This document shows positions 1,522 to 28,743 of a stretch of 42,089 nt of DNA, in pieces. Numbering within the stretch: the stretch's first letter is position 1; each line of letters starts with the position of its first letter. A program made the position numbers and the translations under genes. Under the pieces are notes generated by a model, which worked only from the letters and a program-made list of their open reading frames with translations, made no database searches and was not told where the DNA came from. Location of the stretch: positions 1 to 42,089 of the forward strand of contig JAHWKI010000003.1 of assembly GCA_019347975.1 (NCBI GenBank). Direction: 5' to 3'. This DNA comes from Gemmatimonadota bacterium. GTDB lineage: Bacteria; Gemmatimonadota; Gemmatimonadetes; Longimicrobiales; RSA9.

Positions 1522-3333
1522 TCACTCCTGCGGAGACAAGTTCCAGCGCCCGGAGAAGAGGGAGAGGTCGAGCCACTGGGAAATGCCTTCGGTGAGGATG
1601 GCCGTGATGCTCGCGGAGTCGGACGCCTCGAGCGCCTTCTCGACGTGCGCGCGGGCATCCCCCGCGGGGATCGAGCGGACCACCTTCTTGATCTCGGGGA
1701 GCGCGGACGGGGCGACGCTGAAGGCGGTGATTCCGAGACCCAGGAGCAGGTAGACGCCGAGGGGGTTCCCGGCCATCTCGCCGCACACGCTCACCTCGAT
1801 GCCTGCGTGCCGCCCCGCCCGGGCGGTGCGCTGCAGCAGCTCGACCACGGCCGGATGAAAGGGGGTGAAGCGCGAGGCCAGGCGGGCGTTGTTGCGGTCG
1901 ACGGCCAGCGTGTACTGCGTCAGGTCGTTGCTGCCGATGGAGAAGAAGTCCGCGTAGCGCGTGAGCTCGGCCGCCATGAGCGCCGCCGCGGGGGTCTCGA
2001 TCATCACGCCCAGCTTGTAGCCCGGGTTGAACGCGATGCCGTCCTCGTTGAGACGGTCCTCCTCCTCCTCCAGGATCTTTCGCGCCTGCCGGATCTCGCG
2101 CACATCGCTGATCAGGGGCAGCATGATCCGGACGTCTCCGTGGACGGTCGCGCGGAGCATGGCCCGGACATGGGTGCGGAAGAGCTCCGGCATGTCCAGG
2201 CACAGCCGGATCGCCCGCCAGCCGAGCATGGGGTTCTCTTCGGCCGGCATGTTGAGGAACAGGGGGAACTTGTCACCGCCGAGGTCGAACGAGCGGATCA
2301 CGACCGCGTGGTGCGGGAAGGCCTCCGCCGCCTCCCGGTACGCCTGGTACTGATACTCCTCCTCCGGAAGGACCCGGCGCCCGACGACGAGGAACTCGGT
2401 GCGGAACAGGCCGATCCCCTGGGCGCCGAGCTCCCGTGCCGTCGCCGCCTCTCCCGGCATGTCGATATTGGCCCGGAGCTGAACGGGCTGGCGATCCGGC
2501 GTGACCGGGTCCAGGTGCGCCAGCAGCACCAGCTCCTGCTCCCATTCCCGTACCTGGATATCGCGCTCCCTGTAGACGCGCCGCTCCTGGTCGGTCGGGT
2601 GCAGGATGACCCGCCCGGCCCGGCCGTCCAGCACCACCTCGTCCCCGGACTCCACCTGGGTCGAGAGGTCGCCCAGCCCCACCACGGCGGGGATCCCCAG
2701 GGCGCGGGCCAGAATCGCGGAGTGGGAGGTCCGGGTGCCCGCGTCGGTGGCGAGCCCTAGGACCCGGTCCGGCTCCAGCTGGACGGTAATGCTGGGGGTG
2801 AGGTCGCGGGCCACGATGACGACGGGGCGCTCGATGCCGTGGAGGACGCCGTCCGGATCGCCCACGCCGAGGAGCTTCCGGACGAGGCGCGTCTCGACGT
2901 CGAGCAGATCGTTGAGCCGGTCCAGCACCATGGGGTGGCCGGTCTGCCTGAACTGGGACTGGAATTCGAGGACGCGCAGCTCGAGAGCGCGGGCGGCGGA
3001 GATCCGGTTCTCGGTGATGTAGGACTCCACGTCCCCCACCAGGTCCGAGTCCTGGAGCATCATGAGCTGCGGCTCGAAGATCTGGGCCTCGACGCGGCCC
3101 AGACGCTCGGCGGTCTCCGCCTGGATCTCCAGGATGCGGAGCCGGGTGGCTTCGAGAGCCTCCCTGAACCGCTCGATCTCGGAGTTCAGCTCGTCCGGCT
3201 CCAGCGTCTGGTGCGGCACCTTCGGCCGCTCCCAGGCGAGAACCCGTGCCGGCCCGATCACGATACCGGGAGAAGCGGGCGTTCCGTCGCGGACCGTTCG
3301 CTCGCTCACGTCATTCCTCCCCGAATCTCCCAT
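1522..3333 (-). CDS. ptsI: Phosphoenolpyruvate-protein phosphotransferase (PTS enzyme I)
   Basis: [21 protein letters not shown] phospho-His loop; [32 protein letters not shown] motifs. Confidence 0.96.
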
Positions 3334-3592
3334 CCACGAGGGCCGAAAGGACGTCGACCGCCTCGGCGGCGCCCGGGCCGCTGGCCCGGATCACGATCTC
3401 CGCCCCGCGCTCGGCCGCCAGCATCATCATTCCCATGATGCTCTTCCCGTTGACTTCGAGGTCGGCCTTCCGAACCCATACGTCGCACTCGAAATCATGC
3501 GCCTTCTTGACGAACTCCGCCGCCGGACGGGCGTGCAGCCCGTACTTGTTCTGAATCAGGACGCTCCGCTCGACCGTCTCCGGCCCGTTCAC
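3311..3592 (-). CDS. ptsH: HPr phosphocarrier protein
   Basis: GTG start at 3592; NKYGLHARPAAEFV (His15 site) and NGKSIMGMMMLAAERG (Ser46 site). Confidence 0.95.
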   Translation of the reverse strand: MNGPETVERSVLIQNKYGLHARPAAEFVKKAHDFECDVWVRKADLEVNGKSIMGMMMLAAERGAEIVIRASGPGAAEAVDVLSALVDGRFGEE

Positions 3593-4329
3593 GTCACGAC
3601 TCCCGCCAGGAGCCCGGCCACCGCCGTCACGGCGACCGCGGCGACGCCGAAGCGTCGGGCGCGCTCGCCCCAGCGCGCGCCGGCCGCCGCGGCCAGCACC
3701 GCCATGGGGATCCACAGGTGGCCCGGGCGCATGTCGAGGGTCGGCACGCCGCGGAGCACGACGAGGGCGAGGGCGACCCCCGCGACGAACGACCCCGCGG
3801 CCATCAGGCGCGGCTGGAGGCGGCGGAGCGCCGACCCCCGCAGCCGCTCGGCGACGGAGCGCCCGCCGGCCAGCCCCAGGCGGAGACCCCAGACCATGAG
3901 CACGAGGTGCAGGACGTTGTAGAGCAGGAGGAAGGAGACGATCGCCACCCACCAGGGCGCACCCATGAGGAGCAGGACCAGCGCCGCGAGGACGCAGAGA
4001 GGGCGCCAGCCCGCCCAGATGAGCTGGTCGCCCAGCGTCCCGAGGGAGCCTCTCAACGCTGCCTTGAACCGCTCGATCACAGCGGGATCTTCTCCTTCCT
4101 CTTCCATGCGGATGACCGCCCCGAGCGCCAGGGGCGCCAGGTACGGATGACTGTTGAACGTGCCCTCGTGCCGCCGGATCGCTTCGTGGAGCGCGGCCGG
4201 ATCCGTGTGCAGCCGGCGCAGCGCCGGGAGGATCACGAACGCGAAGCCCGTCCCCATCAGCGTCTCGTAGTTCCAGGAGCCCTGAACGGCGAACGCCCGG
4301 ACCATGACCGGCCACGGCAGCCGCATCAT
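3589..4329 (-). CDS. PTS system mannose/fructose/sorbose-family IID component
   Basis: RAFAVQGSWNYETLMGTGFAFVILPALRR...HEGTFNSHPYLAPLALGAVIRMEEE, IID-like; overlaps neighbours by 4 nt. Confidence 0.9.
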   Translation of the reverse strand: MMRLPWPVMVRAFAVQGSWNYETLMGTGFAFVILPALRRLHTDPAALHEAIRRHEGTFNSHPYLAPLALGAVIRMEEEGEDPAVIERFKAALRGSLGTLGDQLIWAGWRPLCVLAALVLLLMGAPWWVAIVSFLLLYNVLHLVLMVWGLRLGLAGGRSVAERLRGSALRRLQPRLMAAGSFVAGVALALVVLRGVPTLDMRPGHLWIPMAVLAAAAGARWGERARRFGVAAVAVTAVAGLLAGVVT

Positions 4330-4994
4330 CTCACCGCCAGGACCAGGACCACGCCCACGAGGACGCCGGCGATGAGCGACACGCGGGCCGAACGCCCGGC
4401 GCCGAAGAGGGGGACGGCCGTCCCGAGCATCCCCGCGGCCGCGATCCCGAGAATGGCCAGGGTGAGGGGATGCGGGAGGCTCCAGAAGGGGGCCAGGACG
4501 CGCAGGAGCCCGTAGCCGGCGAGCCCACCGATGGCCGCGACCAGACCGCCCCGAACGAAGTCCAGCGTCATGGCGCCGAGATGGCGCCGCTCGAGCACCT
4601 CGGCCGCCAGCGGTCCCCCACGGGTGAGGCGACGGCCGTTGATCTGTCGCTGGAGCACCACGGTCTGTCCGCCGATCCGCTCCCAGCCGAGGGCGAACGT
4701 GAGGGCCAGGAGGAGCGCGCCCGCCTGGAGCCCCGGGGGGGTGGCGGCCAGGTAGGCGGCCGCGGCGGCCACCGTGGCCGTGCCGGACTCGGGGTATCGC
4801 GCGGCCCCGATCGGCAGGATGATCAATGAAAAGGCCTCCACCAGGAATCCGAGCGCCAGCCCCTCGGCGGGCCGGCCGAAGAGGACGCCGGTGAGGACGC
4901 CGGCGACGACGGGACGGGAGATCATGATCTGGGGGAAGGACGTCGCGTCCAGTCCCACGAAGCCGCCCAGGAGCCCGGTGGCGAGCCAGCTCAT
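4326..4994 (-). CDS. PTS system mannose/fructose/sorbose-family IIC component
   Basis: Hydrophobic multi-TM protein, GLLGGFVGLDATSFPQIMISRPVVAGVLTGVLFG..., in IIC position between IIB and IID. Confidence 0.88.
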   Translation of the reverse strand: MSWLATGLLGGFVGLDATSFPQIMISRPVVAGVLTGVLFGRPAEGLALGFLVEAFSLIILPIGAARYPESGTATVAAAAAYLAATPPGLQAGALLLALTFALGWERIGGQTVVLQRQINGRRLTRGGPLAAEVLERRHLGAMTLDFVRGGLVAAIGGLAGYGLLRVLAPFWSLPHPLTLAILGIAAAGMLGTAVPLFGAGRSARVSLIAGVLVGVVLVLAVR

Positions 4995-5476
4995 CGGGTG
5001 CGTACCAGCTCCTCGACGCCGACCCCGCGGGCGTTCGGCAGGTCCCGTGCGACCACCTCCACGCCATTCCGGGCCATTTCCTCGAGCTGCCGCCGCTCCG
5101 CGTCGTTCAGGAATACGTAGTGCAGCACCTGGCTCCTGCCGGGGCCGTGATGGATCCCGCCGATGTTCACCTCGCGCCCGCGAAGGCAGCCCGAAGCAGC
5201 GAGGCGACTCATCGTGCCGATGTCGCGGGTCAGGAGCAGCGCCCGGTCCCTGGAGCCCTCCCATTCCGGCAGACCGTCCACCGCGTCGGCGACGGAGCGG
5301 AACTCGGCCTCGATGCCCGAGGGCACCCCCGCCGCATAGAGCTCCTGCTCCCATGTGGACGCGGCCAGGTCGTCATCCACGACGATGATCCGGGACGGGT
5401 TCAGCCGTCCGCCCCACCCGACCACCACCTGTCCGTGGATCAGGCGCTCGTCGACCCGATAGAGGAGAATGCTCAC
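4991..5476 (-). CDS. PTS system mannose/fructose/sorbose-family IIB component
   Basis: MSILLYRVDERLIHGQVVVGWG (phospho-His DERLIHGQV motif). Confidence 0.93.
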   Translation of the reverse strand: MSILLYRVDERLIHGQVVVGWGGRLNPSRIIVVDDDLAASTWEQELYAAGVPSGIEAEFRSVADAVDGLPEWEGSRDRALLLTRDIGTMSRLAASGCLRGREVNIGGIHHGPGRSQVLHYVFLNDAERRQLEEMARNGVEVVARDLPNARGVGVEELVRTR

Positions 5477-5871
5477 GACGGCCGCAGCTCCACACCGCTC
5501 CCGATGGCCGCGCGGCCGCGCTCCACGAGCCTGGGGACGAGCTCCTCGAGAGGGAGGTGGCGCTTCATGACGAAGTCCAGCAGGACGGGAAGGTTCACGC
5601 CGGTGATGAGAGCGCGCGTCCCTCCGCCCAGGCAGACCTGCCGGGCCGCCAGCCCGCAGCTCCCCTCCCTGAGGTCCGCGAAGACGATCGCGGGACCCTC
5701 ACCCACGAGCTCATCCAGCTTCTCCCGTATGTCGGCGGGGCCGAGCCCCTCGTTGCTCAGCGGGACCAGGGCGCCTTCCTCCGACCCGGCGATCCGCTCG
5801 ACGGCGCCGATGAGAGCGCGGGCGAGCTCGGAGTGGGCGACGACGATGCCGCGGACGCCGTCGTCACTCAT
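5473..5871 (-). CDS. PTS system mannose/fructose-family IIA component
   Basis: MSDDGVRGIVVAHSELARALIGAVERIAG...FADLREGSC; His in the VAHSELA position. Confidence 0.9.
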   Translation of the reverse strand: MSDDGVRGIVVAHSELARALIGAVERIAGSEEGALVPLSNEGLGPADIREKLDELVGEGPAIVFADLREGSCGLAARQVCLGGGTRALITGVNLPVLLDFVMKRHLPLEELVPRLVERGRAAIGSGVELRPS

Positions 5872-6823
5872 AGTCCTCCTCCAGGTAGTCCCGTACGGGG
5901 CGCATGGCCGCCTGCAGGCTCTCATTGAACCGCGCGGCAGAATGCACGCCCGAGTACTTCAGGAGGTGGTTCATCGCGATCACCTCGGAGATCACGGTGA
6001 TGTTCTTTCCGGGGTTCAGCGGCACGGTGACCTGCGGCATCTGAACACCGAGTATGTCCACCTCCTCGGCCTCCAGCCCCGTCCGCTCGTAGGTCTCGCG
6101 GTCGTTCCAGTCGACGAGCCGGACCACGACCTCGATCCTCTTCTGCTGACGGATGGCCCGGACACCGAACAGCGCGGAGATGTCGATGATCCCGATGCCA
6201 CGGATCTCCATGTGGTGCCGCTGGAGCTCGTGACCCCGGGCGATCAGGACGTCGTTTCCGCGCTTGCTCACGAACACCAGGTCGTCGGCCACCAGGCGGT
6301 GCCCGCGCTCCACGAGGTCCAGAACGCACTCGCTCTTGCCGATGCCGCTGCGGCCGACGATGAGCAGACCGACGCCGTAGACGTCCGCCATGGAGCCGTG
6401 CATCGTGGTCGTAGGGGCGAACACGCCCTCCAGATAGGGCTGCAGCCGCCGGTAGAAGTCCCCCGTCTTGAGCGAGGTCCGCAGGACCAGGATGTTCCGC
6501 TCACGGGCGCCGTCGAGGAGCGCGGCCGGAACCTCGAGGGCCTTCGTGACCACAACCGCCGGCATCTCCAGGGCGAAGAGGCGATCGAGCGCATCGTCCA
6601 GCCCCGCCTGGTCGAGGGACCGCAGGAAGGCGACCTCCGTCTCCCCCAGCACCTGGAGCCTGCCGCTGGGCGCCCGGTCGTTGAACCCGGTGAGAATGAG
6701 TCCGGGGCTGGAGATGCTCGGCGCCTCGATGGGCTGGCTCGATGCCACGTCGCCCACGAGGAGCTCGAGGTCCAGCGCGCCGGCCTTGTCCGCCATGAAC
6801 TGCTCGAGGCTCAGTGTCCCCAC
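5864..6823 (-). CDS. hprK: HPr(Ser) kinase/phosphorylase
   Basis: GRSGIGKSECVLDLVERGHRLVADD Walker A; EIRGIGIIDISALFGVRAIR signature; probable GTG start at 6823. Confidence 0.95.
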   Translation of the reverse strand: MGTLSLEQFMADKAGALDLELLVGDVASSQPIEAPSISSPGLILTGFNDRAPSGRLQVLGETEVAFLRSLDQAGLDDALDRLFALEMPAVVVTKALEVPAALLDGARERNILVLRTSLKTGDFYRRLQPYLEGVFAPTTTMHGSMADVYGVGLLIVGRSGIGKSECVLDLVERGHRLVADDLVFVSKRGNDVLIARGHELQRHHMEIRGIGIIDISALFGVRAIRQQKRIEVVVRLVDWNDRETYERTGLEAEEVDILGVQMPQVTVPLNPGKNITVISEVIAMNHLLKYSGVHSAARFNESLQAAMRPVRDYLEEDYE

Positions 6824-6876
6824 ACGCCGCCTTCCGGATGGGTGATCCCCACGTCCATCGCTCTCCTCACTTCCTG

Positions 6877-7989
6877 CTACGCCGGCCGCGCCACTCCGGC
6901 GAGGAAGCTCTCCATCTCCTCGGCCGAGCGGTCCCATGTGAAGCGCTCGGCGAACGCACGCGCCTTTCGCCCCAGCGACTCCCGGAGGGGCTCGTCCGCG
7001 ACCAGCGCCCGCACTCGCCGGGCCAGCGCCGCCACGTCTCCGTGGGGCACGAGGAAACCGGTTTCGCCGTCCACGACAGAGTCCCGCAGCCCCGGCGAAT
7101 CGCTGGCGATCGTCGGCGTCCCGCAGGCGGCGGCTTCCAGGTTCGTGATCCCCCACCCTTCCTTGGGGGAGGTGAGCACGTGGATCCACGCGCGGCGGAA
7201 GAGCTCGATCTTTTCGTCCTCGTCCACGTAGCCGCGCAGCTCCACGGCGTCCTCCACTCCGAGCTTCGCGGCCAGCGCCCGGAGCGCCCGCTCCTGGTCC
7301 CCGGTCCCGGCGATCACCAGCCGGACCTCCATCCCCTCCTCACGCAGCCGGGCAACCGCCCGTATCGGCAGGTCCACGCGCTTGTAGCGCTTCAGCCGCC
7401 CGAGGTAGAGCAGGGTCGGGGTATCGAACCGCCCCGCCGGCGTCCCGGGCGACAGCCGCTCGATCTCGACGCCGTTGGGCACCACCGTGATCGTCTCCTC
7501 CGTCAACCCTCGCCCGACCAGATCCTGCGCCGTGCTCCGGGACACGGCCATCGTCGGGACGCCCCGGTAGACCACGCCCAGCGGCCGCTCGAGCAGCCAG
7601 CTCGCCGCTGCGACCGGCGCGGCGGCCTCCTGAAACGCCGTGGCGCCGAACAGGTGGTGCACCAGCAGGGCCAGCGGGTCCCGGGTCCAGAGCGGGGTGA
7701 ACAGCGGGACCTTGTTCAGGTCCTCCACGACCACGTCGAACTCCCGGTCCCTCAGGGCCCGTCTGTAGTACACCGGGGCGGCCGCGTTGAATGTATAGCG
7801 CCCCCCCACCCTGTGCACCTGCATGCCGTCCAGCTCCGCCCGGGCGGGGGCGCCGCGGGGACGGGAGACCAGGAGGGTGACGCGATGGTCGCGGTCGGCG
7901 AGTCGTCCGAAGATCTGGTGGAGGTGGGTCTCGGCCCCACCGGCCGCCGGGTCGAGCCGATCCTGCCAGTTGAGGACGAGGATCCTCAC
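6877..7989 (-). CDS. Glycosyltransferase family 4 (GT-B) protein
   Basis: GGAETHLHQIFGRLA N-terminus; VVPNGVEIERL; SPKEGWGITNLEAAACGTPTIASDSPGLRDSV C-terminal motif. Confidence 0.92.
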   Translation of the reverse strand: MRILVLNWQDRLDPAAGGAETHLHQIFGRLADRDHRVTLLVSRPRGAPARAELDGMQVHRVGGRYTFNAAAPVYYRRALRDREFDVVVEDLNKVPLFTPLWTRDPLALLVHHLFGATAFQEAAAPVAAASWLLERPLGVVYRGVPTMAVSRSTAQDLVGRGLTEETITVVPNGVEIERLSPGTPAGRFDTPTLLYLGRLKRYKRVDLPIRAVARLREEGMEVRLVIAGTGDQERALRALAAKLGVEDAVELRGYVDEDEKIELFRRAWIHVLTSPKEGWGITNLEAAACGTPTIASDSPGLRDSVVDGETGFLVPHGDVAALARRVRALVADEPLRESLGRKARAFAERFTWDRSAEEMESFLAGVARPA

Positions 7990-19002: not shown

Positions 19003-20265
19003 TCAGCCCACCCGCTCGAGCTCGGCCACGGTCTCGACGTGGGCGGTCTGGGGAAACAGGTCGAAGCACCGGAGCCCCGCCAGCCGATACCCCGGGCTCA
19101 GCCGTTCGAGATCCCGCGCCAGCGTGGCCGGGTCGCAGCTCACGTACAGCAGCCGCGACGGTGGCCGCTCCAGCAGCCGGTCCGGGACCACGGCGTGGAG
19201 CCCGGCTCGGGGCGGGTTCAGGACCGCGGCGTCCACCGGCAGCGCCTCGGCGATGCGCCCCTCGACCGTGCCTTCCAGGAATCGACCGGCGGGGGCGGCC
19301 CGGCGGGCCTCCTCCAGCGCCGCGGGATGCGCCTCGATCCCGACCACCTCGATCCCGTCCCTGGTGAGCCGCCGCGCGTACAGCCCGACCCCGCAGTAGC
19401 CGTCCAGCACCGTCCCGGCGCCGGCAGACCGAAGCCGCTCCAGCACGTGCTCCTCCAGCAGGGCGGCGGCTCCGCGGTTCACCTGCGTGAACACGTCTCC
19501 GCTCAGCTCCACGTCCTCATCCGCCCACCGGTCGCGGAGCCCCGCGCCGCCGATCAGCCGGTACTCCCCGGCGCCCGATGGCCGGTGCCAGATCGCCTCC
19601 AGGGAGGGGATCGCGGCGAGGAGCTCCTCGGGGCGTCCGGAGGCGTAGCCGCCGTCCACCGCCAGCGCCACCGATCCGGCTTCCGTCGCCCGCAGCATCA
19701 GCCTCAACTCGTTCCCCGAGGGCAGACGCCGCGCCTCCGGGCCCCACTCGCGTCGCAGCGCGCCCCACGCGTCCGCCACCGGCTCCTCGGGGAGGAGGCA
19801 GTCGGATCCGATATCGACCAGCGTGTCCGGCCGCTCCAGCGCGTGGAACCCCGCCGTCACGCCGCCGCGGTCCCGTCGCAGGGTGAACGTGACCCGGTTG
19901 CGGTACCGGAACTCGGACGGTGACGGCGTGATCGGAGGCTCATCGGCGTCGAGGCCGCCGATGCGTCGGAGGGCCTCGACGACCATGTGGGCCTTGGCGT
20001 GGAGCTGGGCCTCGTACGTGAGGTGCTCCAGCGTGCAGCCGCCGCAGCGGTCGTAATGGGGACATGGCGCCTGCCGCCGGTCCGGCGAGGCCTCGCGCAC
20101 GGCGATCAGCTCCGAGCGGGTCCAGCGCTTCCGCGCTTCCACGACCCGCACCACGACCCGGTCGCCGGGGGCGGTCCGATGCACGAACGTGACCCGTCCG
20201 TCCGGCAGACGCCCGACGCCCGCGCCGCCTGCCGCGATTCCGGTGACTTCGACCTCCACCCCCAT
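19003..20265 (-). CDS. 23S rRNA/tRNA m5U methyltransferase (TrmA/RlmD family) with TRAM domain
   Basis: N-terminal TRAM-like region; CPHYDRCGGCTLEHLTYEAQ Fe-S motif; LDGYCGVGLYARRL; LLYVSCDPATLARDL catalytic Cys. Confidence 0.93.
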   Translation of the reverse strand: MGVEVEVTGIAAGGAGVGRLPDGRVTFVHRTAPGDRVVVRVVEARKRWTRSELIAVREASPDRRQAPCPHYDRCGGCTLEHLTYEAQLHAKAHMVVEALRRIGGLDADEPPITPSPSEFRYRNRVTFTLRRDRGGVTAGFHALERPDTLVDIGSDCLLPEEPVADAWGALRREWGPEARRLPSGNELRLMLRATEAGSVALAVDGGYASGRPEELLAAIPSLEAIWHRPSGAGEYRLIGGAGLRDRWADEDVELSGDVFTQVNRGAAALLEEHVLERLRSAGAGTVLDGYCGVGLYARRLTRDGIEVVGIEAHPAALEEARRAAPAGRFLEGTVEGRIAEALPVDAAVLNPPRAGLHAVVPDRLLERPPSRLLYVSCDPATLARDLERLSPGYRLAGLRCFDLFPQTAHVETVAELERVG

Positions 20266-20338: not shown

Positions 20339-20899
20339 CTACGACCTCGGGACCGCTTCCTCCTCCTCGGTGGCGGCCAGCTCGGGCGCCGGCCCGAGCT
20401 CGCGCACCACCTGGATCGCCTCCTGGTTCACGACGATGTCCCCGAGCCCCTTCCCCCGCGGGCGCAGCTCCGCCTTCCGGAGCGGGACGAAGGGCGGGGC
20501 GGACTGGAGATAGTCGCTGAGGCGCTGGTTCTGCACGAGGAGGAGCCCGGCCGAGAGGAAGTAGCCTCCCTCGAGCTCCACCTCGACCCTGCGCGCGGCC
20601 GCTGCGGCCTGGGCGCTGGTCAGCGGCAGCTCGCCGTCCTGCGAGGTGGCCCACAGGATCTTGTCTACCTTGAGCGCCATGTGAGGGACCTTCTCTGCCG
20701 TCCCCATCCAGTCGACGGCCGTGAGGTTCACGTAGCGCGTTCGGCTCGCCAGGTATGTCGATAGGAACTGCCCCTGCGGGACCCTGGCGTTCGCGTCCAG
20801 GACACGGTGGTCCCGCAGGAACAGCCGGAGCCGCCGCGGCGGATTGGTCTCGTTCGGATTCACGTTTCTGCCCCCGTTAGCATGGCCTGTCACTGTCAC
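20339..20899 (-). CDS. Hypothetical protein (186 aa)
   Basis: ORF overlaps the Hpt gene stop by 4 nt (GTGA); LRLFLRDHRVLDANARVPQGQFLSTYLASRTRYVNLTAVDW...; family not recognised. Confidence 0.75.
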   Translation of the reverse strand: MTVTGHANGGRNVNPNETNPPRRLRLFLRDHRVLDANARVPQGQFLSTYLASRTRYVNLTAVDWMGTAEKVPHMALKVDKILWATSQDGELPLTSAQAAAAARRVEVELEGGYFLSAGLLLVQNQRLSDYLQSAPPFVPLRKAELRPRGKGLGDIVVNQEAIQVVRELGPAPELAATEEEEAVPRS

Positions 20900-21255
20900 C
20901 TTCCTGAACGCCGCCTCCGCTCCGCCTCCAGCCGCTGCCTCACCTCGTCGTAACGGGCGGCCATCTCGTCGAGAAGAGGTGGGATGCCCGCCGTATCCTG
21001 CGCCGCCGCCCGCCCTTCCACCCGCTCCGCAATCTGCTGCAGCGCGCGCGCGCCCAGGTTCGCCGCCGTCGACTTCAGCGAGTGCGCGGCCCGGTAGAGC
21101 GCCTGGTCGTCTCCCCTCGCGGCCGCAGCGGTGGCGGCGCGAATGCGCTCCGGCGCGTGCTGGAGGAACAGGTCGATCATCTCCAGCAGGAAGTCCTGCC
21201 CGCCGATGCGGAGCAGCCGCTCCAGCGCGGCGCCTTCGAGGACATCGTCGCCCAC
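20896..21255 (-). CDS. Histidine phosphotransfer (Hpt) domain protein
   Basis: QALYRAAHSLKSTAANLGARALQQIAERVE; all-helical, 119 aa; starts immediately after the stop codon of the upstream gene. Confidence 0.93.
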   Translation of the reverse strand: MGDDVLEGAALERLLRIGGQDFLLEMIDLFLQHAPERIRAATAAAARGDDQALYRAAHSLKSTAANLGARALQQIAERVEGRAAAQDTAGIPPLLDEMAARYDEVRQRLEAERRRRSGR

Positions 21256-23685
21256 CTACGTCATCCTCGCCCGGCGCAGCGTGGCCCGCACTCGCGCGAT
21301 GAAGCGTGGCGGGTCGAGAGGCTTGCGGAGGTAGTCATCCGCCCCCGCCTCCATCAGCCGATACTCGTCGTCCGGATCCGGCGAGCCCGTCAGCACGATC
21401 ACCGGAAGAGCGATGGTCGAGCCCGAAGAGCGGAGACGGTGCAGCACCTCCCGCCCGTCCAGCGTCGGCATCTCGAGGTCCAGCACGACCAGCGCGTGCG
21501 TGTCGCCCATCCCGATCATGAGGAGCGCTTCGTCCCCGTCCCGGGCCTCCTCCACCCGGAAGCCGTGCTTCTGGAGGATCGTGCGCACCAGCAGACGGTC
21601 CTCGGGGTCATCATCCACCACCAGGATCGGCGCCTCCTCGCTGCCCCCGCCCAGCGAGAGCCCCGAGGGCGGGCGGGCGGTCCGCGGCAGGGCCTCCTCC
21701 ACCTGCTCGCGAGCGAGCGGCGGGGCCACGGCTGGCGAACCGCCCGTCCCCAGGTCCGCTTCCAGCTGGTCGAGATCGATGATCGGGATGTCGTCATCGT
21801 CCGCGAGGTCCGGCGCGCGCACGCCGGCCCGCAGAGGAGAGGCGTCCGCCGTCACCGGAAGCGGCTCATCCTCCGGCTCGATAGTCTCCGCGGGCGGCGT
21901 GAGGTCTGGCTCGGCACGAGCGGCGGCTGCGGGCTCCGCCCCGTACGCCTCGTCCCTCTGCCGCTCCGGCGCCTCGGAGCTCGCCGCCGTTTCCTCGGCC
22001 TCGAGCCCGAGCACCCTCTCGAGCTCGTCCAGCGTCGTCTCACCGCTCCGGACCCGCTCCAGCCCCACGTGCAGAAGGGGCCGCATGCCGGAAGAGACGG
22101 ACGCCGCGTACAGCTCGGAGTACGTGCCGCCCCCGTTGATCAGATCGCTGATCGTGGTGTTCACCACGAAGACTTCCTGCACCGGGATCCGCCCGCGGTA
22201 CCCGGTCTCGGCGCAGCGGCGGCACCCCACGCTGCGGATCGGCGGGCGCAGGTTGTAGAGCTTGGCCAGGCGGATCTCGTCCTCGGTCATCTCGCCGCGG
22301 ATCGGCTCGCCGCACTCGTCGCAGACCTTCCGGACCAGGCGCTGGGCCAGCGCGCCCCGCAGGGTGGCCGCGATGCTGGCGCGGTCCAGGCCGATGTCGA
22401 GCAGCCGTGCGACGACGCTGACGGCGTCGTTCGTGTGGAGTGTCGCCAGCACGAGGTGCCCGGTCATGGCGGCCTGCACTGCCACCTGGGCCGTGTCCTG
22501 GTCCCGGATCTCGCCCACCAGGATCACGTCCGGATCCTGGCGCAGGATGGCCCGGAGCGCGCCGGCGAACGTCACGCCACGCTTCGGCTGGACCTGGATC
22601 TGCGTGATCCCCGGCAGCTCGTACTCCACCGGGTCCTCCACCGTCATGATGTTGACCTCGCCGGTGGCCAGCTCGCGGATCGCGGCATACAGCGTGGTCG
22701 TCTTCCCGGAGCCCGTGGGGCCGGTGACGCAGACGATCCCGTCGCGGTTCGACAGGAGCTGACGCAGCCGGCCCAGCTCCCAGGCGGGAAGGCCGATCTC
22801 GCTCAGCTTCGCCGCCTGCCCGCCCTTCAGGATCCGGAGCACCACCTTCTCGGCTTCCCGGGTCGGGACCGTCGAGATGCGGATGTCGTACGGCCGACCC
22901 TCCACCATGACCCGGGTACGGCCGTCGTGGGGACGCCATTTGTCCGCGATGTCGAGGTTGCCCATGATCTTGATCCGGGAGACGACCCGGATCAGCGCCG
23001 GCAGCGGCAGCTGCATGTAGTTGCGGAGCACGCCGTCGATCCGGAACCGGACCGTCCCACCGCTGGCCCCCGGCTCGATGTGGACGTCGCTCGCACCGTT
23101 CATGGCGGCGTCGCGCAGGATCAGGTTGGTCAGCTTGATGACCGGCGCGCTTTCCGCTTCGGCCTCCGTCACCGCATCCTGGTCATCCCCCTTCATCACC
23201 GAGACCGAGCTGGCGATGGCTTCATCCACCCGGCTGAGCAGCGACTCGATCACGCCGTCCGGGCTGTAGCTCGCGTTGATGAAGTCGAGGATGAACGGGG
23301 GCGGAGCGACCTCGAAGACGGCCTTGCGACCGGAGATGAAGCCCAGCGCCTGCTCGGCCGCGAAATTGGTGGGGTCGCTGGTCGCGACGGTGAGCTGGCG
23401 ATCGTCTTCCTTCATGGGGAAGATCAGGTACTGCCGCGCGATCTTCTCCGGAACCAGCTTGATGGCGTTCGGCTCGGCCGTGTCGAGCGTGGCGACCTTC
23501 AGCCGGAAGTAATCGGCCACGTGCTGCGCCAGCCGGTCCTGGGTGATGCCGGTCATGTCGCACACCGTCATCCAGGCTTCGGCCGCCGGCATCCCCGGGT
23601 CGAGGTCCAGCTCTTCCGTGTCCGGAAGGCCGCCCCGCCGGAGGACCTGCACGAGCCAATGCTTCTTTTGAAGACCCTTTACCAC
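21256..23685 (-). CDS. GspE/PilB-type ATPase fused to a C-terminal response-regulator receiver domain
   Basis: N-terminal T2SSE_N-like region; GPTGSGKTTTLYAAIRE Walker A; ILRQDPDVILVGEIRDQDTA; CDEC...CRRC zinc motif; C-terminal ILVVDDD...VVLDLEMPTLDG...VLTGS...YLRKPLD receiver. Confidence 0.94.
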   Translation of the reverse strand: MVKGLQKKHWLVQVLRRGGLPDTEELDLDPGMPAAEAWMTVCDMTGITQDRLAQHVADYFRLKVATLDTAEPNAIKLVPEKIARQYLIFPMKEDDRQLTVATSDPTNFAAEQALGFISGRKAVFEVAPPPFILDFINASYSPDGVIESLLSRVDEAIASSVSVMKGDDQDAVTEAEAESAPVIKLTNLILRDAAMNGASDVHIEPGASGGTVRFRIDGVLRNYMQLPLPALIRVVSRIKIMGNLDIADKWRPHDGRTRVMVEGRPYDIRISTVPTREAEKVVLRILKGGQAAKLSEIGLPAWELGRLRQLLSNRDGIVCVTGPTGSGKTTTLYAAIRELATGEVNIMTVEDPVEYELPGITQIQVQPKRGVTFAGALRAILRQDPDVILVGEIRDQDTAQVAVQAAMTGHLVLATLHTNDAVSVVARLLDIGLDRASIAATLRGALAQRLVRKVCDECGEPIRGEMTEDEIRLAKLYNLRPPIRSVGCRRCAETGYRGRIPVQEVFVVNTTISDLINGGGTYSELYAASVSSGMRPLLHVGLERVRSGETTLDELERVLGLEAEETAASSEAPERQRDEAYGAEPAAAARAEPDLTPPAETIEPEDEPLPVTADASPLRAGVRAPDLADDDDIPIIDLDQLEADLGTGGSPAVAPPLAREQVEEALPRTARPPSGLSLGGGSEEAPILVVDDDPEDRLLVRTILQKHGFRVEEARDGDEALLMIGMGDTHALVVLDLEMPTLDGREVLHRLRSSGSTIALPVIVLTGSPDPDDEYRLMEAGADDYLRKPLDPPRFIARVRATLRRARMT

Positions 23686-23845
23686 AGGCGTTCTTCAGCG
23701 GCAGAAGAGATGACCAACCTCGGTCCAGGGGATGTGGCAAGCACCGGAGCGCGCCGATTGGCTAACCCGCGGGAGAGCGCGGCTCTCCATCTTAGAAACG
23801 CTTTCCCGAAAAGGCAAGCAGTGAAAAGGCACCGAAACTCGTGAT

Positions 23846-23881: not shown

Positions 23882-25369
23882 TCAGCGCCACCCGGTCGCG
23901 CGCCACCTGGAGCGGGGTGCGGAGGAATCCCCCACGCGGCGAACGGAGCGGCGGTCGCGGTCCTCCTGGGCGAGGAGCGCGGCGGCGACAGCCGCGGCGC
24001 GGATCGCCTCATCGGACGGAGCCGCCGCGCCGAGCTCGGGGTGGCGCTCGAGATACCGGATGTCCAGGCGTCCCGCGCGGAAATCGTCCTCCGCGAGGAC
24101 GCGGCCGTGGAACGCTGCGCTGGTCTCGACGCCGACGACCCGGAGCTCCGCGAGGGCGCGGCTCATCCTGGAGATGGCGAGGGCGCGGGAGGGCGCGTGA
24201 ACGATGAGCTTGGCGAGCATGGGGTCGTAGTGGAGGGAGATGTCGTCGCCCTCCTGTATCCCGCCATCCCAGCGGACGCCGGGACCGGCCGGCACGTGGA
24301 GGAGCTGGATGCGTCCGGTGGACGGCAGGAAGCCGTTTGCGGGATCCTCGCTCGTGATCCGGCACTCGATGGCATGGCCGGTCCAGCGGACGTCCTCCTG
24401 CCGCAGGTCCAGCGGCTCCCCCGCGGCTATGCGGAGCTGCCACTGGACCAGGTCGATCCCGGTGACCAGCTCCGTCACCGGGTGCTCGACCTGGATCCGC
24501 GTGTTCATCTCCAGGAAGAAGAAGTCGCCGTCCTGGAAGAGAAACTCGACGGTCCCGGCGTTCCTGTAGCCGACCGCCTCCGCGGCGGCGACGGCGGCAT
24601 CACCCATGGCCGCCCGCACGGCCGGAGTGATCACGGGCGAGGGCGCTTCCTCGATCATCTTCTGGTGCCGCCGCTGGATGGAGCACTCCCGCTCACCCAG
24701 ATGGATGGTGTGGCCGTGGGCGTCCGCCAGCACCTGGATCTCGATGTGACGGGGTCCGTCCAGGAAGCGCTCCAGGTAGACGCTGCCGTCACCGAACGCC
24801 GCCTTCGCCTCCCTGGAGGCCGACTCGAACGACGCGGCCACCTCGCCGGGCTCCCGTACCACCCGCATGCCCTTCCCGCCGCCGCCCGCCGCCGCCTTCA
24901 GCATCACGGGGAAGCCGATCTCCTCCGCCGTCCGCTCCGCGTCGGCCACGTCCGTGAGCGCCTCGGCGGTGCCCGGGACCACCGGCACCCCCGCCGCCAT
25001 CATGGCCTGCCGCGCCCTGGTCTTGTCCCCCATGGCGTCGATGGCCGCGGACGAGGGGCCCACGAACACCAGCCCGGCCTCCTCCACCGCCGCCGCGAAG
25101 GACGCGCGCTCGGCGAGAAAGCCGTAGCCCGGATGGACGGCGTCGCAGCCGCGCTCCAGGGCCGCCTCGATCAGGCGGTCCGCCCGCAGATAGCTTTCGG
25201 CGGCAGGGGCGGGACCCAGGAGGACCGACTCCCCCGCGGCCAGGACGTGGGCCGCGCGGCGGTCCGCTTCGGAGCAGACCGCCACGGCCCCGATGCCGAG
25301 CTCGTGGCAGGCGCGGATCACCCGCAGCGCGATCTCGCCGCGGTTGGCGACCAGGACCTTCTTCAGCAT
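23882..25369 (-). CDS. accC: Acetyl-/propionyl-CoA carboxylase biotin carboxylase subunit
   Basis: MLKKVLVANRGEIALRVIRACHELGI, KAAAGGGGKGMRVV, ERECSIQRRHQKMIEEAPSP, EMNTRIQVEHPVTE. Confidence 0.95.
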   Translation of the reverse strand: MLKKVLVANRGEIALRVIRACHELGIGAVAVCSEADRRAAHVLAAGESVLLGPAPAAESYLRADRLIEAALERGCDAVHPGYGFLAERASFAAAVEEAGLVFVGPSSAAIDAMGDKTRARQAMMAAGVPVVPGTAEALTDVADAERTAEEIGFPVMLKAAAGGGGKGMRVVREPGEVAASFESASREAKAAFGDGSVYLERFLDGPRHIEIQVLADAHGHTIHLGERECSIQRRHQKMIEEAPSPVITPAVRAAMGDAAVAAAEAVGYRNAGTVEFLFQDGDFFFLEMNTRIQVEHPVTELVTGIDLVQWQLRIAAGEPLDLRQEDVRWTGHAIECRITSEDPANGFLPSTGRIQLLHVPAGPGVRWDGGIQEGDDISLHYDPMLAKLIVHAPSRALAISRMSRALAELRVVGVETSAAFHGRVLAEDDFRAGRLDIRYLERHPELGAAAPSDEAIRAAAVAAALLAQEDRDRRSVRRVGDSSAPRSRWRATGWR

Positions 25370-25504: not shown

Positions 25505-27049
25505 TTACAGTGGGATGTTCCCATGCTTTTTGGGCGGGTTGACATCCCGTTTGTTCGCCAGCATGTCCAGGCCGCTGATCAGCCGCGGACGCGTTTCGCG
25601 GGGGTCGATCACGTCATCGATGTAGCCGCGAGCGGCGGCGATATACGGGTGAGCGAAGCGCTCCCGGTACTCCGCCTCCCTCGCCTTCGCCGCCGCCTCC
25701 GGATCCTCGGCCTCGCCGATCTCCTTGCGGAACAGGATCTCCACCGCGCCCTTGGGGCCCATCACGGCGATCTCGGCCGTGGGCCACGCCAGGTTGAGGT
25801 CGCCGCGGATGTGCTTGGAGTTCATCACGTCGTACGCGCCGCCGTACGCCTTGCGGGTGATGATCGTGATCCGCGGCACCGTCGCCTCGCAGAAGGCGTA
25901 CAGGAGCTTGGCACCGTGACGGATGATCCCGCCGTGCTCCTGGGCCACGCCGGGCAGGAAGCCGGGCACGTCCTCGAAGACCACCAGGGGGATGTTGAAC
26001 GCGTCGCAGAGCCGGACGAAGCGGGCGCCCTTGTCGGAGCTGTTGATGTCCAGCACGCCGGCCAGGACGGCGGGCTGGTTCGCGACGATCCCGACGCTCC
26101 TGCCGCCGACGTGGGCGAAGCCGACGACGATGTTGCGGGCGTAGTCCCCGTGCACCTCGTAGAACTCGCCGTCGTCCACCACGCGCCGGATCACATCGTG
26201 GATGTCGTACGGGCGGGAGGGCTCGTCGGGGATGACGTCGAGCAGCTCCTCGTCCTGCCGATCGAACGGGTCGGTGGTCTCCCGCGTGGGCGGGTCCTCC
26301 CGGTTGTTCTGCGGGAGGAAGTCGAAGAGGCGGCGGATCCCCTCCAGGCACTCCATCTCGGAGTCCACGGCGAAATGGGCGACGCCGGAGACGGACGCGT
26401 GGACATCGGCGCCGCCGAGCCCCTCCATGTCGATGTCCTCGTGCGTGACCGTCTTCACCACGTTCGGGCCGGTCACGAACATGTAGCTCGTGCCCCGGAC
26501 CATGTAGACGAAGTCGGTGATGGCCGGAGAGTAGACCGCGCCGCCCGCACACGGGCCGAGGATCGCGCTGATCTGCGGGATCACCCCGGAAGAGAGCGTG
26601 TTGCGGAGGAAGATGTCCGCGTACCCCCCGAGGCTGACGACGCCCTCCTGGATCCGCGCGCCGCCGCTGTCGTTGAGCCCGATGACCGGCACGCCGCTCT
26701 CCAGCGCCAGGTCCATGATCTTCACGATCTTCTCCGCGTGGGTCTCGGAGAGAGAGCCGCCGAAGATGGTGAAGTCCTGGCTGAAGACGTAGACCGGGCG
26801 TCCCTTCACGGTCCCGTAGCCGGTGACGACGCCGTCGCCGAGGTACTTCTTCTTCTCCAGCCCGAAGCCGGAGCTGCGATGGGTCACGAACCGGTCCATC
26901 TCCACGAAGCTGGCCTCGTCCAGCAGGAGGTCCAGCCGCTCCCTGGCCGAGAGCTTCCCCCTGTCGTGCTGCTTTTTCACCCGCTCCGGACCCCCGCCCA
27001 GCTCCGACTCCCGACGACGCTCCTCCAGCTCCTTCAGCTTTTCCCGCAT
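25505..27049 (-). CDS. pccB: Acyl-CoA (propionyl-CoA) carboxylase carboxyltransferase subunit
   Basis: [93 protein letters not shown]; start at ATG 27049 (GTG at 27055 also possible). Confidence 0.95.
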
Positions 27050-27051
27050 GC

Positions 27052-28743
27052 TCACCGACGCACCCCCGCCTGACCGGACGTGTCCGAGAGCGGAGCCTTC
27101 GGCTGCGGGAGCGTGTACTCCCAGGGCGCCGGAGCCGGGAGCAGCGCGCCGTCGCGGATGATCACCATGTACGGCGTGCGTACGATCCGACTCGCCCGGA
27201 CCGAGAACGTTCCGGTCGCCCCCCGTATCCCGGCCAGCAGGCTGAACCGCCTGGAAAGCGCCGAAGGGCTGGTGAGCCGGTTCGGAAGCGCCTGGAGCAC
27301 CAGGTTCGCGGCATCGTAGCCCAGCGCCGGGAGCTGGTTCTCCAGTGAGCGGCGATACGTCTCCTCGTAGCGCCGTACGAACTCGGGATCGGCGATGGCG
27401 TCCGCGCGGCCGGGCGGGAAGTGCGACGCGGCGATCACCCCCTCGATATCCTGCCGTGGGACGACCCGGCGCACCGCCGCGCTGGTCCACGCCTCGTCGC
27501 CGAACACCTGGACGCCCGCCGAGTCGAGGCCGTAGAACGCCACCTGAGGGGCGATCTGCCGGACGTCGCGCTCGGGCGCGGCCACGAACAGGGCGAACGG
27601 CTGCTGTGGTGGCCGTCCGTACCAGGGTCCCGGCGAAACGACGGAGGCCGGCGGGAGCGTGTCGGTGCGCGCGCCGTACCCGAGAGAGTCGACCGGGGGC
27701 TGCCGATGGAGCGTGTCGACCGGAGCCACGCGCTCGAGGATGCGCCGCATGTGGACGTCGAACGTCGTCGTCCCCGAATCGTAGGGCATGGCGGCCCGGA
27801 CCACACCGCCCATGGCCTCGAACTCCACCGCGAACGCCCGCGCCTTGCGCTCGTACTCCTCGCCCCTGGGGTAGAGCAGCGCCGCCTGCGTGATCCCCAC
27901 CTCCGCCGCGTAGCGCCCGAGCTCCTGCGCGCCGCGCCCGTCGCCGGTGTTCACGGTGTAGACGTGCGGCCACACCGGGTGATCGGGAACGGTGGGGCTG
28001 ATGGTGACGAGCGCGCCGTCCCTCCGGGCCCCCGCCACCTCCGTAAGCTGCGGCGGGAGGAGCGGCCCGACCACCGCCAGCACGCCGCGGGCCTCCAGCT
28101 CCGCCATCGCCTCGCGGGTGCGGGTACCGCCCGCGTCGTCCGCCACCACCAGCTCGATCGCCCGCCGCTCCCGCGCCTCCGCCTGCCGCGCCGCGATCTC
28201 CATGCCCTCCAGCAGCCAGTCCGCGTACCGCACCATGATCCGCGACCCCGTCCGCGGCAGGACCACGCCCACGCGCACCGGCGCCGTCGAGGCGGGCTCC
28301 AGCTCGTCACGGGCCAGCTCGGCCAGGTCCCTGGCGTCCGCGGCGGCCGCGCTCCCCGCCTCCGCGCGCGCGAACGACTCCGCCAGCTCCACCGCTTCCG
28401 CCCAGCGGCCGAGCGAGAACGCCGCCCGCGCGCCCACCCACGACGCGGCGACGGCGGAAGCCGTGCCGGGATAGTCCCGCATTGCCGTGCGGGACAGGTC
28501 GAGGGCCTCTCCGAGCTCCGCGGCCTCATACGCCAGCCGCGCTCCCGAAAGCAGCTCTCCCGCCGCCCGCTCCGCTTCCTCGGCCGCCGATTCCTCGGGC
28601 GTCACCGCGCCCCCGGGCGTCTCCACCCCCGGCTCCGCCGGAGCTTCTCCACCCGGTGCGCTCGGCCCCTGCGGCGGAGCCTCCCCCACCGTGCAGGCGA
28701 GGAGCACCGCCAGGATCACCACCGGCCACGTTCGCTTCGTCAT
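27052..28743 (-). CDS. Lipoprotein, ABC-type LIV-binding / penicillin-binding-protein-activator-like
   Basis: [20 protein letters not shown] lipobox; helical-repeat-like region, then periplasmic binding fold [32 protein letters not shown]. Confidence 0.8.

Follow-up and report, generated by a model that had tools for sequence, protein, structure and literature searches.

A PilB-type ATPase with its own receiver domain in Gemmatimonadota, a candidate pilus motor at the end of a proposed phosphorelay

A gene of a Gemmatimonadota bacterium encodes a PilB/GspE-type ATPase that carries a receiver domain (REC) at its C-terminus and is immediately followed by a gene for a stand-alone HPt protein. 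The gene is located in a window of 42,089 nucleotides (contig JAHWKI010000003.1, assembly GCA_019347975.1), which is the whole stretch of DNA analysed here. As judged from comparison with its relatives, the fusion protein, designated PilB-REC, belongs to an old and conserved Gemmatimonadota family, and gene context leads us to predict, as a reading that is on balance probable, that a multistep phosphorelay has this motor as its final output.

The features of the locus are collected in Table 1. A first-pass annotation of the sequence had described one continuous 809-aa frame, and this was confirmed: the 809-codon minus-strand frame has no internal stop, it opens with a GTG start, and its orthologues have the same domain order. 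A frameshift or stop between ATPase and receiver, which the annotation had named as one possible refutation, is rejected, since dozens of genomes show the same order in an uninterrupted frame. From N- to C-terminus, a degenerate MshEN domain is followed by a complete PilB/GspE ATPase, then by a disordered linker and finally by REC, with the MshEN, T2SSE and Response_reg matches all above the Pfam cut-offs. The T2SSE match scores 395 bits against a Pfam gathering score of 24.9, which assigns the protein to the GspE/PilB (T2SSE) family, while the NCBIfam equivalog cut-offs were not reached for either GspE (503 of 630 bits) or PilB (461 of 676 bits). The ATPase contains a Walker A motif GPTGSGKTTT (residues 322-331), a GEIRD box (391-395), an Asp box, a His box and a zinc tetracysteine motif (Cys455/458/488/491). 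These motifs are nearly invariant in an alignment of 50 family members, which together with the Pfam match bears out the earlier view of an intact GspE/PilB ATPase. Compared with solved structures, the PilB-type ATPase part matched the Myxococcus PilB entry 3jc8 (phmmer, 1.6e-106), and the best Foldseek matches include GspE, PilF and PilB at 36-43% identity.

The phosphorylation residues expected in a receiver (DD, D, T/S and K), which had likewise been noticed in the first reading, are present as D691-D692, D736, T766 and K788. A residue other than Asp at the D736 position occurs only in pseudo-receivers, in a GGDEF variant or at a contig end; the K788 position is Lys in 44 of the 50 members, and the phospho-acceptor Asp is retained with the conserved Thr and Lys in about 90% of the family. 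In a full-length AlphaFold2 model (30-row alignment, mean pLDDT 80), the check that had been proposed for the architecture, the N-terminal domain, the ATPase and REC were all predicted with confidence and residues 563-682 were disordered; the pTM of the model is low (0.57), and for this reason the placement of REC on the ATPase is not readable from it. Two details of the annotation had to be changed. The linker, put at roughly 180 aa, measures about 120-125 aa according to the model and to a survey of linkers, and the Pfam match to the receiver, which had been put at about 21256-21627, covers 21286-21627. Among 48 family members, linker length ranges from 12 to 137 aa (median 17.5), and half of the loci have a linker of 19 aa or less. 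A 920-aa antisense ORF at 21082-23844 (+) overlaps the fusion gene; it most likely arises mechanically from the high G+C content.

Table 1. Features of the PilB-REC locus, with positions in the window, strand and supporting evidence.
Feature	Position	Strand	Details and evidence
RlmD-type rRNA methyltransferase	19003..20265	(-)	downstream flank; NCBIfam TIGR00479 above cut-off, synteny
DUF6812-like protein	20339..20899	(-)	Pfam 5.5e-05, below cut-off; overlaps HPt stop
Stand-alone HPt protein, 119 aa	20896..21255	(-)	Pfam PF01627 1.4e-15, 57.7 bits; junction sequence
Predicted phospho-acceptor His58 codon of HPt (AHSLKS)	21082..21084	(-)	sequence; HPt domain alignment
PilB-REC fusion gene	21256..23685	(-)	809 aa, GTG start; open frame, Pfam, orthologues
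C-terminal receiver (REC)	21286..21627	(-)	residues 687-800; Pfam PF00072, 1.5e-25; beta-alpha fold, high pLDDT; active-site residues
Predicted phospho-acceptor Asp736 codon	21478..21480	(-)	Asp in 46/50 family members
Disordered low-complexity linker	21640..21999	(-)	residues 563-682; pLDDT about 30-50
T2SSE/PilB ATPase	22015..23160	(-)	residues 176-557; Pfam PF00437, 2.6e-118; invariant motifs; Foldseek to PilF/PilB/GspE
MshEN-like N1 domain	23257..23478	(-)	residues 70-143; Pfam PF05157, 4e-15
Biotin carboxylase (accC type)	23882..25369	(-)	upstream flank; Pfam/NCBIfam, synteny

The MshEN-like domain and the HPt gene are additions to the earlier description. The GTG start of the HPt gene begins at the base right after the TAG stop codon of the fusion (21258-21256), and the phospho-acceptor His is aligned in all rows of the HPt domain alignment. 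Three more Hpt matches are present in the genome of the window. The scan of window genes with Pfam and NCBIfam identified no histidine kinase, and the surrounding genes are metabolic. Also noted in the window were, in this high-G+C Gemmatimonadota genome, sugar phosphotransferase genes at 1522-7189 (with enzyme I, HPr, an EII-Sor component and HPr kinase) and an 822-aa ORF at 25505-27973, which fits a carboxyltransferase model from residue 311 onward only; because the match begins there, the real start of this ORF is probably near 27073.

The site of insertion could be recognized by synteny with a related genome (G007), in which the order mmdA-accC-DUF6812-rlmD-BCCP-mutase is unbroken and PilB-REC is absent; in the window, this order is interrupted by PilB-REC and HPt, placed between accC and the gene for DUF6812. 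The DUF6812-like gene was considered as a possible part of the PilB-REC module, and this was rejected, since in G007 it is found between accC and rlmD with no PilB-REC there; by synteny, it is assigned to the host locus. The accC-rlmD gap is a variable spot across the window and loci L181, L183, L184, L185 and L186. In G003 and G005 it is occupied by HPt and REC genes without PilB-REC, in G004 by a subtilisin-like gene and in G001 by a REC-GGDEF-REC-type gene (these last three identified by eye from the sequence). The presence of HPt at this site also without PilB-REC weakens any claim of an exclusive pair, and the HPt of this site can have other partners.

Among Gemmatimonadota, the family is widespread. 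About 134 of 298 genomes contain a member when a match of the full query at E <= 1e-119 is taken as a proxy, the counts coming from a 297-row table and being good to a few units. Members were found in 61 of 65 genomes of family f4, 52 of 102 of f5 and all four of f6; they are few in f1, the family of the window itself (2 of 9 in the sampled draw), and in f2 (15 of 73), and none was seen in families f3 and f7-f11 of this Gemmatimonadota draw at the same threshold. One of the f1 matches outside the sampled draw is a variant with PAS-GGDEF. When 50 members were examined in full, 48 had a REC or REC-like tail; of the other two, L143 is cut off by the end of its contig and L006/L090 has a different tail. 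None of the non-Gemmatimonadota ATPases retrieved carries REC in the same frame, as judged by blastp, and a search with REC alone in 30 genomes outside Gemmatimonadota found REC everywhere and is therefore not informative on the fusion.

A tree of 120 ATPases places the receiver-bearing proteins, together with the PAS-GGDEF variant and a truncated copy, on one side of a single branch and 69 receiver-less PilBs on the other. A single origin of the receiver-bearing ATPases is therefore likely, although short of proven because the tree was built by a quick method with a midpoint root and has several long branches. The distances between ATPase parts correlate with those between REC parts (Mantel r 0.62, with none of 2000 permutations as high), as expected if both parts evolved as one protein, and REC identity across the family averages 46%, with the active site conserved. 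Two groups can be distinguished. Group I, which includes the window, comprises 39 distinct loci with signalling surroundings. Group II comprises 11 loci, the ten with wide flanks being conserved beside clpP-clpX, and no HPt is found near any of the 11. At group II loci L146-L155, which show the clpP-clpX synteny, the neighbour is an uncharacterised, secreted-looking protein of about 700 aa with a weak DUF5686 match. At five loci of family f2, from several genomes (L092, L093, L094, L095 and L096), secD and secF are directly downstream of PilB-REC.

The signalling genes around the group I fusions were compared with those around receiver-less PilB genes of Gemmatimonadota. An HPt domain is encoded within 1.5 kb at 19 of the 39 group I loci and at none of 23 receiver-less loci (Fisher 2.6e-5), and an HPt or GGDEF domain at 27 of 39 against none of 23 (Fisher 1.7e-8); these values are upper bounds on significance because related genomes are not independent, and the counts were obtained with HMMs built from these same loci and with shorter flanks at some control loci. 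A kinase ATPase domain is encoded within 1.5 kb at 13 of 39 group I loci and at one of the 23. At L036, L137, L142 and L145, a hybrid kinase of the HisKA-HATPase-REC-REC-HPt type overlaps the fusion gene or is directly upstream of it. Pfam architectures of individual neighbours are PAS-HisKA-HATPase-REC-REC-Hpt at L036 and, upstream of the fusion, at L039; CHASE3-HAMP-HisKA-HATPase-REC-REC-Hpt downstream at L038; and MHYT-PAS-HisKA-HATPase-REC-REC at L037. At L091 the gene order is kinase-REC, PilB-REC, HPt, REC. Read from gene content, the layout of group I is that of a multistep phosphorelay, in which PilB-REC is the obvious last receiver.

This reading rests on the intact ATPase and REC motifs throughout the family, on the folding of REC at the end of a flexible tether, on the HPt gene that adjoins the fusion and encodes the conserved His, on the recurrence of HPt and kinase neighbours in group I, on the correlated ATPase and REC distances, on the position of the receiver-bearing ATPases in the tree and on prepilin-like genes upstream of some fusions. 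Against it count the HPt genes without PilB-REC in G003 and G005, the group II loci with no HPt nearby, the three copies with degenerate receivers described below and the genomes in which PilC was not found. According to the mechanism that we propose, PilB-REC would be a hexameric assembly motor of the PilB type. Phosphate would pass from a sensor hybrid histidine kinase to its own receiver(s), from there to HPt, and finally to Asp736 of the motor; for the window, the kinase would be encoded elsewhere in the genome. Phosphorylation of the tethered REC may then change the activity of the motor, its assembly or its recruitment to the pilus base, and sensory input would act directly on the motor protein, without transcription. 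The suggestion of the first-pass annotation that a receiver in cis controls an assembly motor by phosphorylation is thus strengthened by the family-wide REC active site and by the HPt and hybrid-kinase genes that adjoin the fusion in half of the subgroup of the window; a pilus role is likely, though in the genome of the window PilC was not found and the gene is outside any pil operon.

The relaxed MshEN c-di-GMP motif (Wang et al., 2016) was found in none of the 50 fusions, against 33 of the 89 other ATPases retrieved, and the motif being absent, canonical c-di-GMP binding is not predicted for the N-terminal domain of the fusion and was rejected. Genes for c-di-GMP synthesis are close, since a REC-GGDEF gene adjoins eight of the 39 group I members (e.g. 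L093) and none of the 23 receiver-less loci. The sister of the window protein in the ATPase tree (G001, support 91) has PAS-GGDEF in place of REC, an exchange that marks the C-terminus as the place where the motor is regulated. In the product of this gene (L090, 1139-3838, contig C366 of G001), a pilus-type motor is joined to a predicted diguanylate cyclase. Three copies of the fusion, at L138 (6821-8983 and 9119-11422), L139 (4976-7042) and L108 (1123-3237), have degenerate receivers, in which the phospho-acceptor Asp and/or the Lys is lost, yet genes for an HPt, a single-domain REC or both are found close to them; of the two genes given for L138, one is degenerate and is in tandem with an intact one. 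Phosphorylation of the fused REC may thus not be needed everywhere. A wider evolutionary picture can be drawn only tentatively, and we consider it plausible but short of probable: an ancient Gemmatimonadota motor family would have become the terminal response regulator of a phosphorelay, with C-terminal phospho-input replacing N-terminal c-di-GMP sensing, one descendant with PAS-GGDEF for the receiver, and tandem pairs of motors with active and pseudo-receivers.

Whether the motor acts on a pilus must be judged from the company of the gene. Prepilin-like genes are directly upstream of PilB-REC at about six loci (L035, L040, L041, L097, L124 and L143); the L097 prepilin has a Pfam N_methyl match, and the L124 and L041 sequences are near-identical. 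PilB-REC never lies within the canonical pilB-pilT-pilC cluster, nor in a pil or gsp operon; where contiguous genomes were checked (e.g. G222 and G032), it is an additional motor beside one such cluster. In the genome of the window, which is 87% complete, there are two PilT-like matches and, on contig C319, a second PilB, but no PilC was found as a T2SSF match. PilC was likewise not found in G040 and G161, both of which carry PilB-REC and are more than 90% complete, while most relatives have at least one PilC. PilB-type ATPases without a T2SSF match occur in four genomes (G000, G040, G161 and G009), which could reflect gaps or real loss. Because PilB-REC is extra to the canonical cluster and PilC was not found in some genomes, it could share a platform as an alternative motor, or could in some lineages have been repurposed.

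The repurposed case deserves consideration as a rival explanation of the whole family. The ATPase would then not be a pilus motor, but a PilB-like hexamer serving as response-regulator output for another process or secretion-like system, and the pilus would be built by the canonical PilB of pilB-pilT-pilC. The supernumerary position of the gene in G222 and G032, the undetected PilC in G040, G161 and the genome of the window, and the secD/secF neighbours of some members would all agree with this. However, all the catalytic and zinc motifs are retained, the nearest matches in sequence and fold are PilB/PilF/GspE, about six loci have the prepilin gene directly upstream, and gaps could explain the missing gene in the PilC-less genomes, which are 87-97% complete; we therefore regard this explanation as unlikely, though not so much that it can be passed over. 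A different objection concerns the receiver, which might be mainly a docking or localisation module (e.g. for recruitment to the pole or for binding of an HPt or REC partner), with phosphorylation secondary. The wide range of linker lengths is easier to reconcile with a tether than with a rigid allosteric joint, and pseudo-receiver copies exist, but the retention of Asp, Thr and Lys in about 90% of members and the short linker at half of the loci argue against it, and we consider it improbable.

That the fusion is an assembly error, a frameshift or a recent accident without function might be suspected from the fragmented genome of the window (360 contigs), but this is refuted by dozens of independent assemblies, some of them single-contig genomes, in which the architecture recurs, and by the conservation of REC and its active site reported above; its probability is negligible. 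The phosphorelay remains the reading that we prefer.

PilB-REC resembles the known PilB, PilF and GspE (T2SSE) ATPases in having the full T2SSE domain with all motifs and 35-43% identity to the solved proteins, and differs from them in its C-terminal REC and its location outside pil and gsp operons. With MshE of Vibrio cholerae and the other MshEN c-di-GMP receptor ATPases, as presented in the main text of Wang et al. (2016, PMC5013675), it shares an MshEN-type domain preceding the ATPase, whereas the c-di-GMP motif described there is missing from all 50 fusions. The same main text reports MshEN together with REC, HD-GYP, CheA and other domains, and does not state whether any MshEN-REC protein also has an ATPase. 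In Synechocystis, PixE, a response regulator of the PATAN-CheY type, binds PilB1 (PMC7690835); this is likewise a receiver-containing regulator that acts on a pilus extension motor, but PixE and PilB1 are separate proteins, the signal comes from the photoreceptor PixD, and the described model has no HPt partner gene. The Pil-Chp and PdeK-PdeR-FimX-PilZ-PilB pathways (PMC11656802) also carry two-component input to pilus extension, but they act through separate regulators, c-di-GMP or transcription, with no receiver within PilB; this review of PilB describes control by separate factors, and the word 'receiver' does not occur in it. Genes for type IV pili have been noted in Gemmatimonadota (PMC10581226). 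The open-licence literature searched yielded no paper on a PilB or GspE that has a receiver fused to it; the association of MshEN with REC was already reported in 2016. The annotation had foreseen that the architecture might prove widespread and well characterised: widespread it is, within Gemmatimonadota, but a characterisation was not found in that literature.

The known control of pilus extension by sensory input mostly passes through intermediaries, i.e. separate regulators, c-di-GMP or transcription. If the proposed mechanism is true, a motor that bears a receiver and shares an operon with its HPt donor would be the shortest known path from a sensor to a pilus, and would offer a simple system for understanding how phosphorylation alters a PilB hexamer. 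Natural experiments on this motor are provided by the PAS-GGDEF variant and by the copies with pseudo-receivers, in a family that is widespread in a common phylum of soil and water, the surface behaviour of which is almost unstudied.
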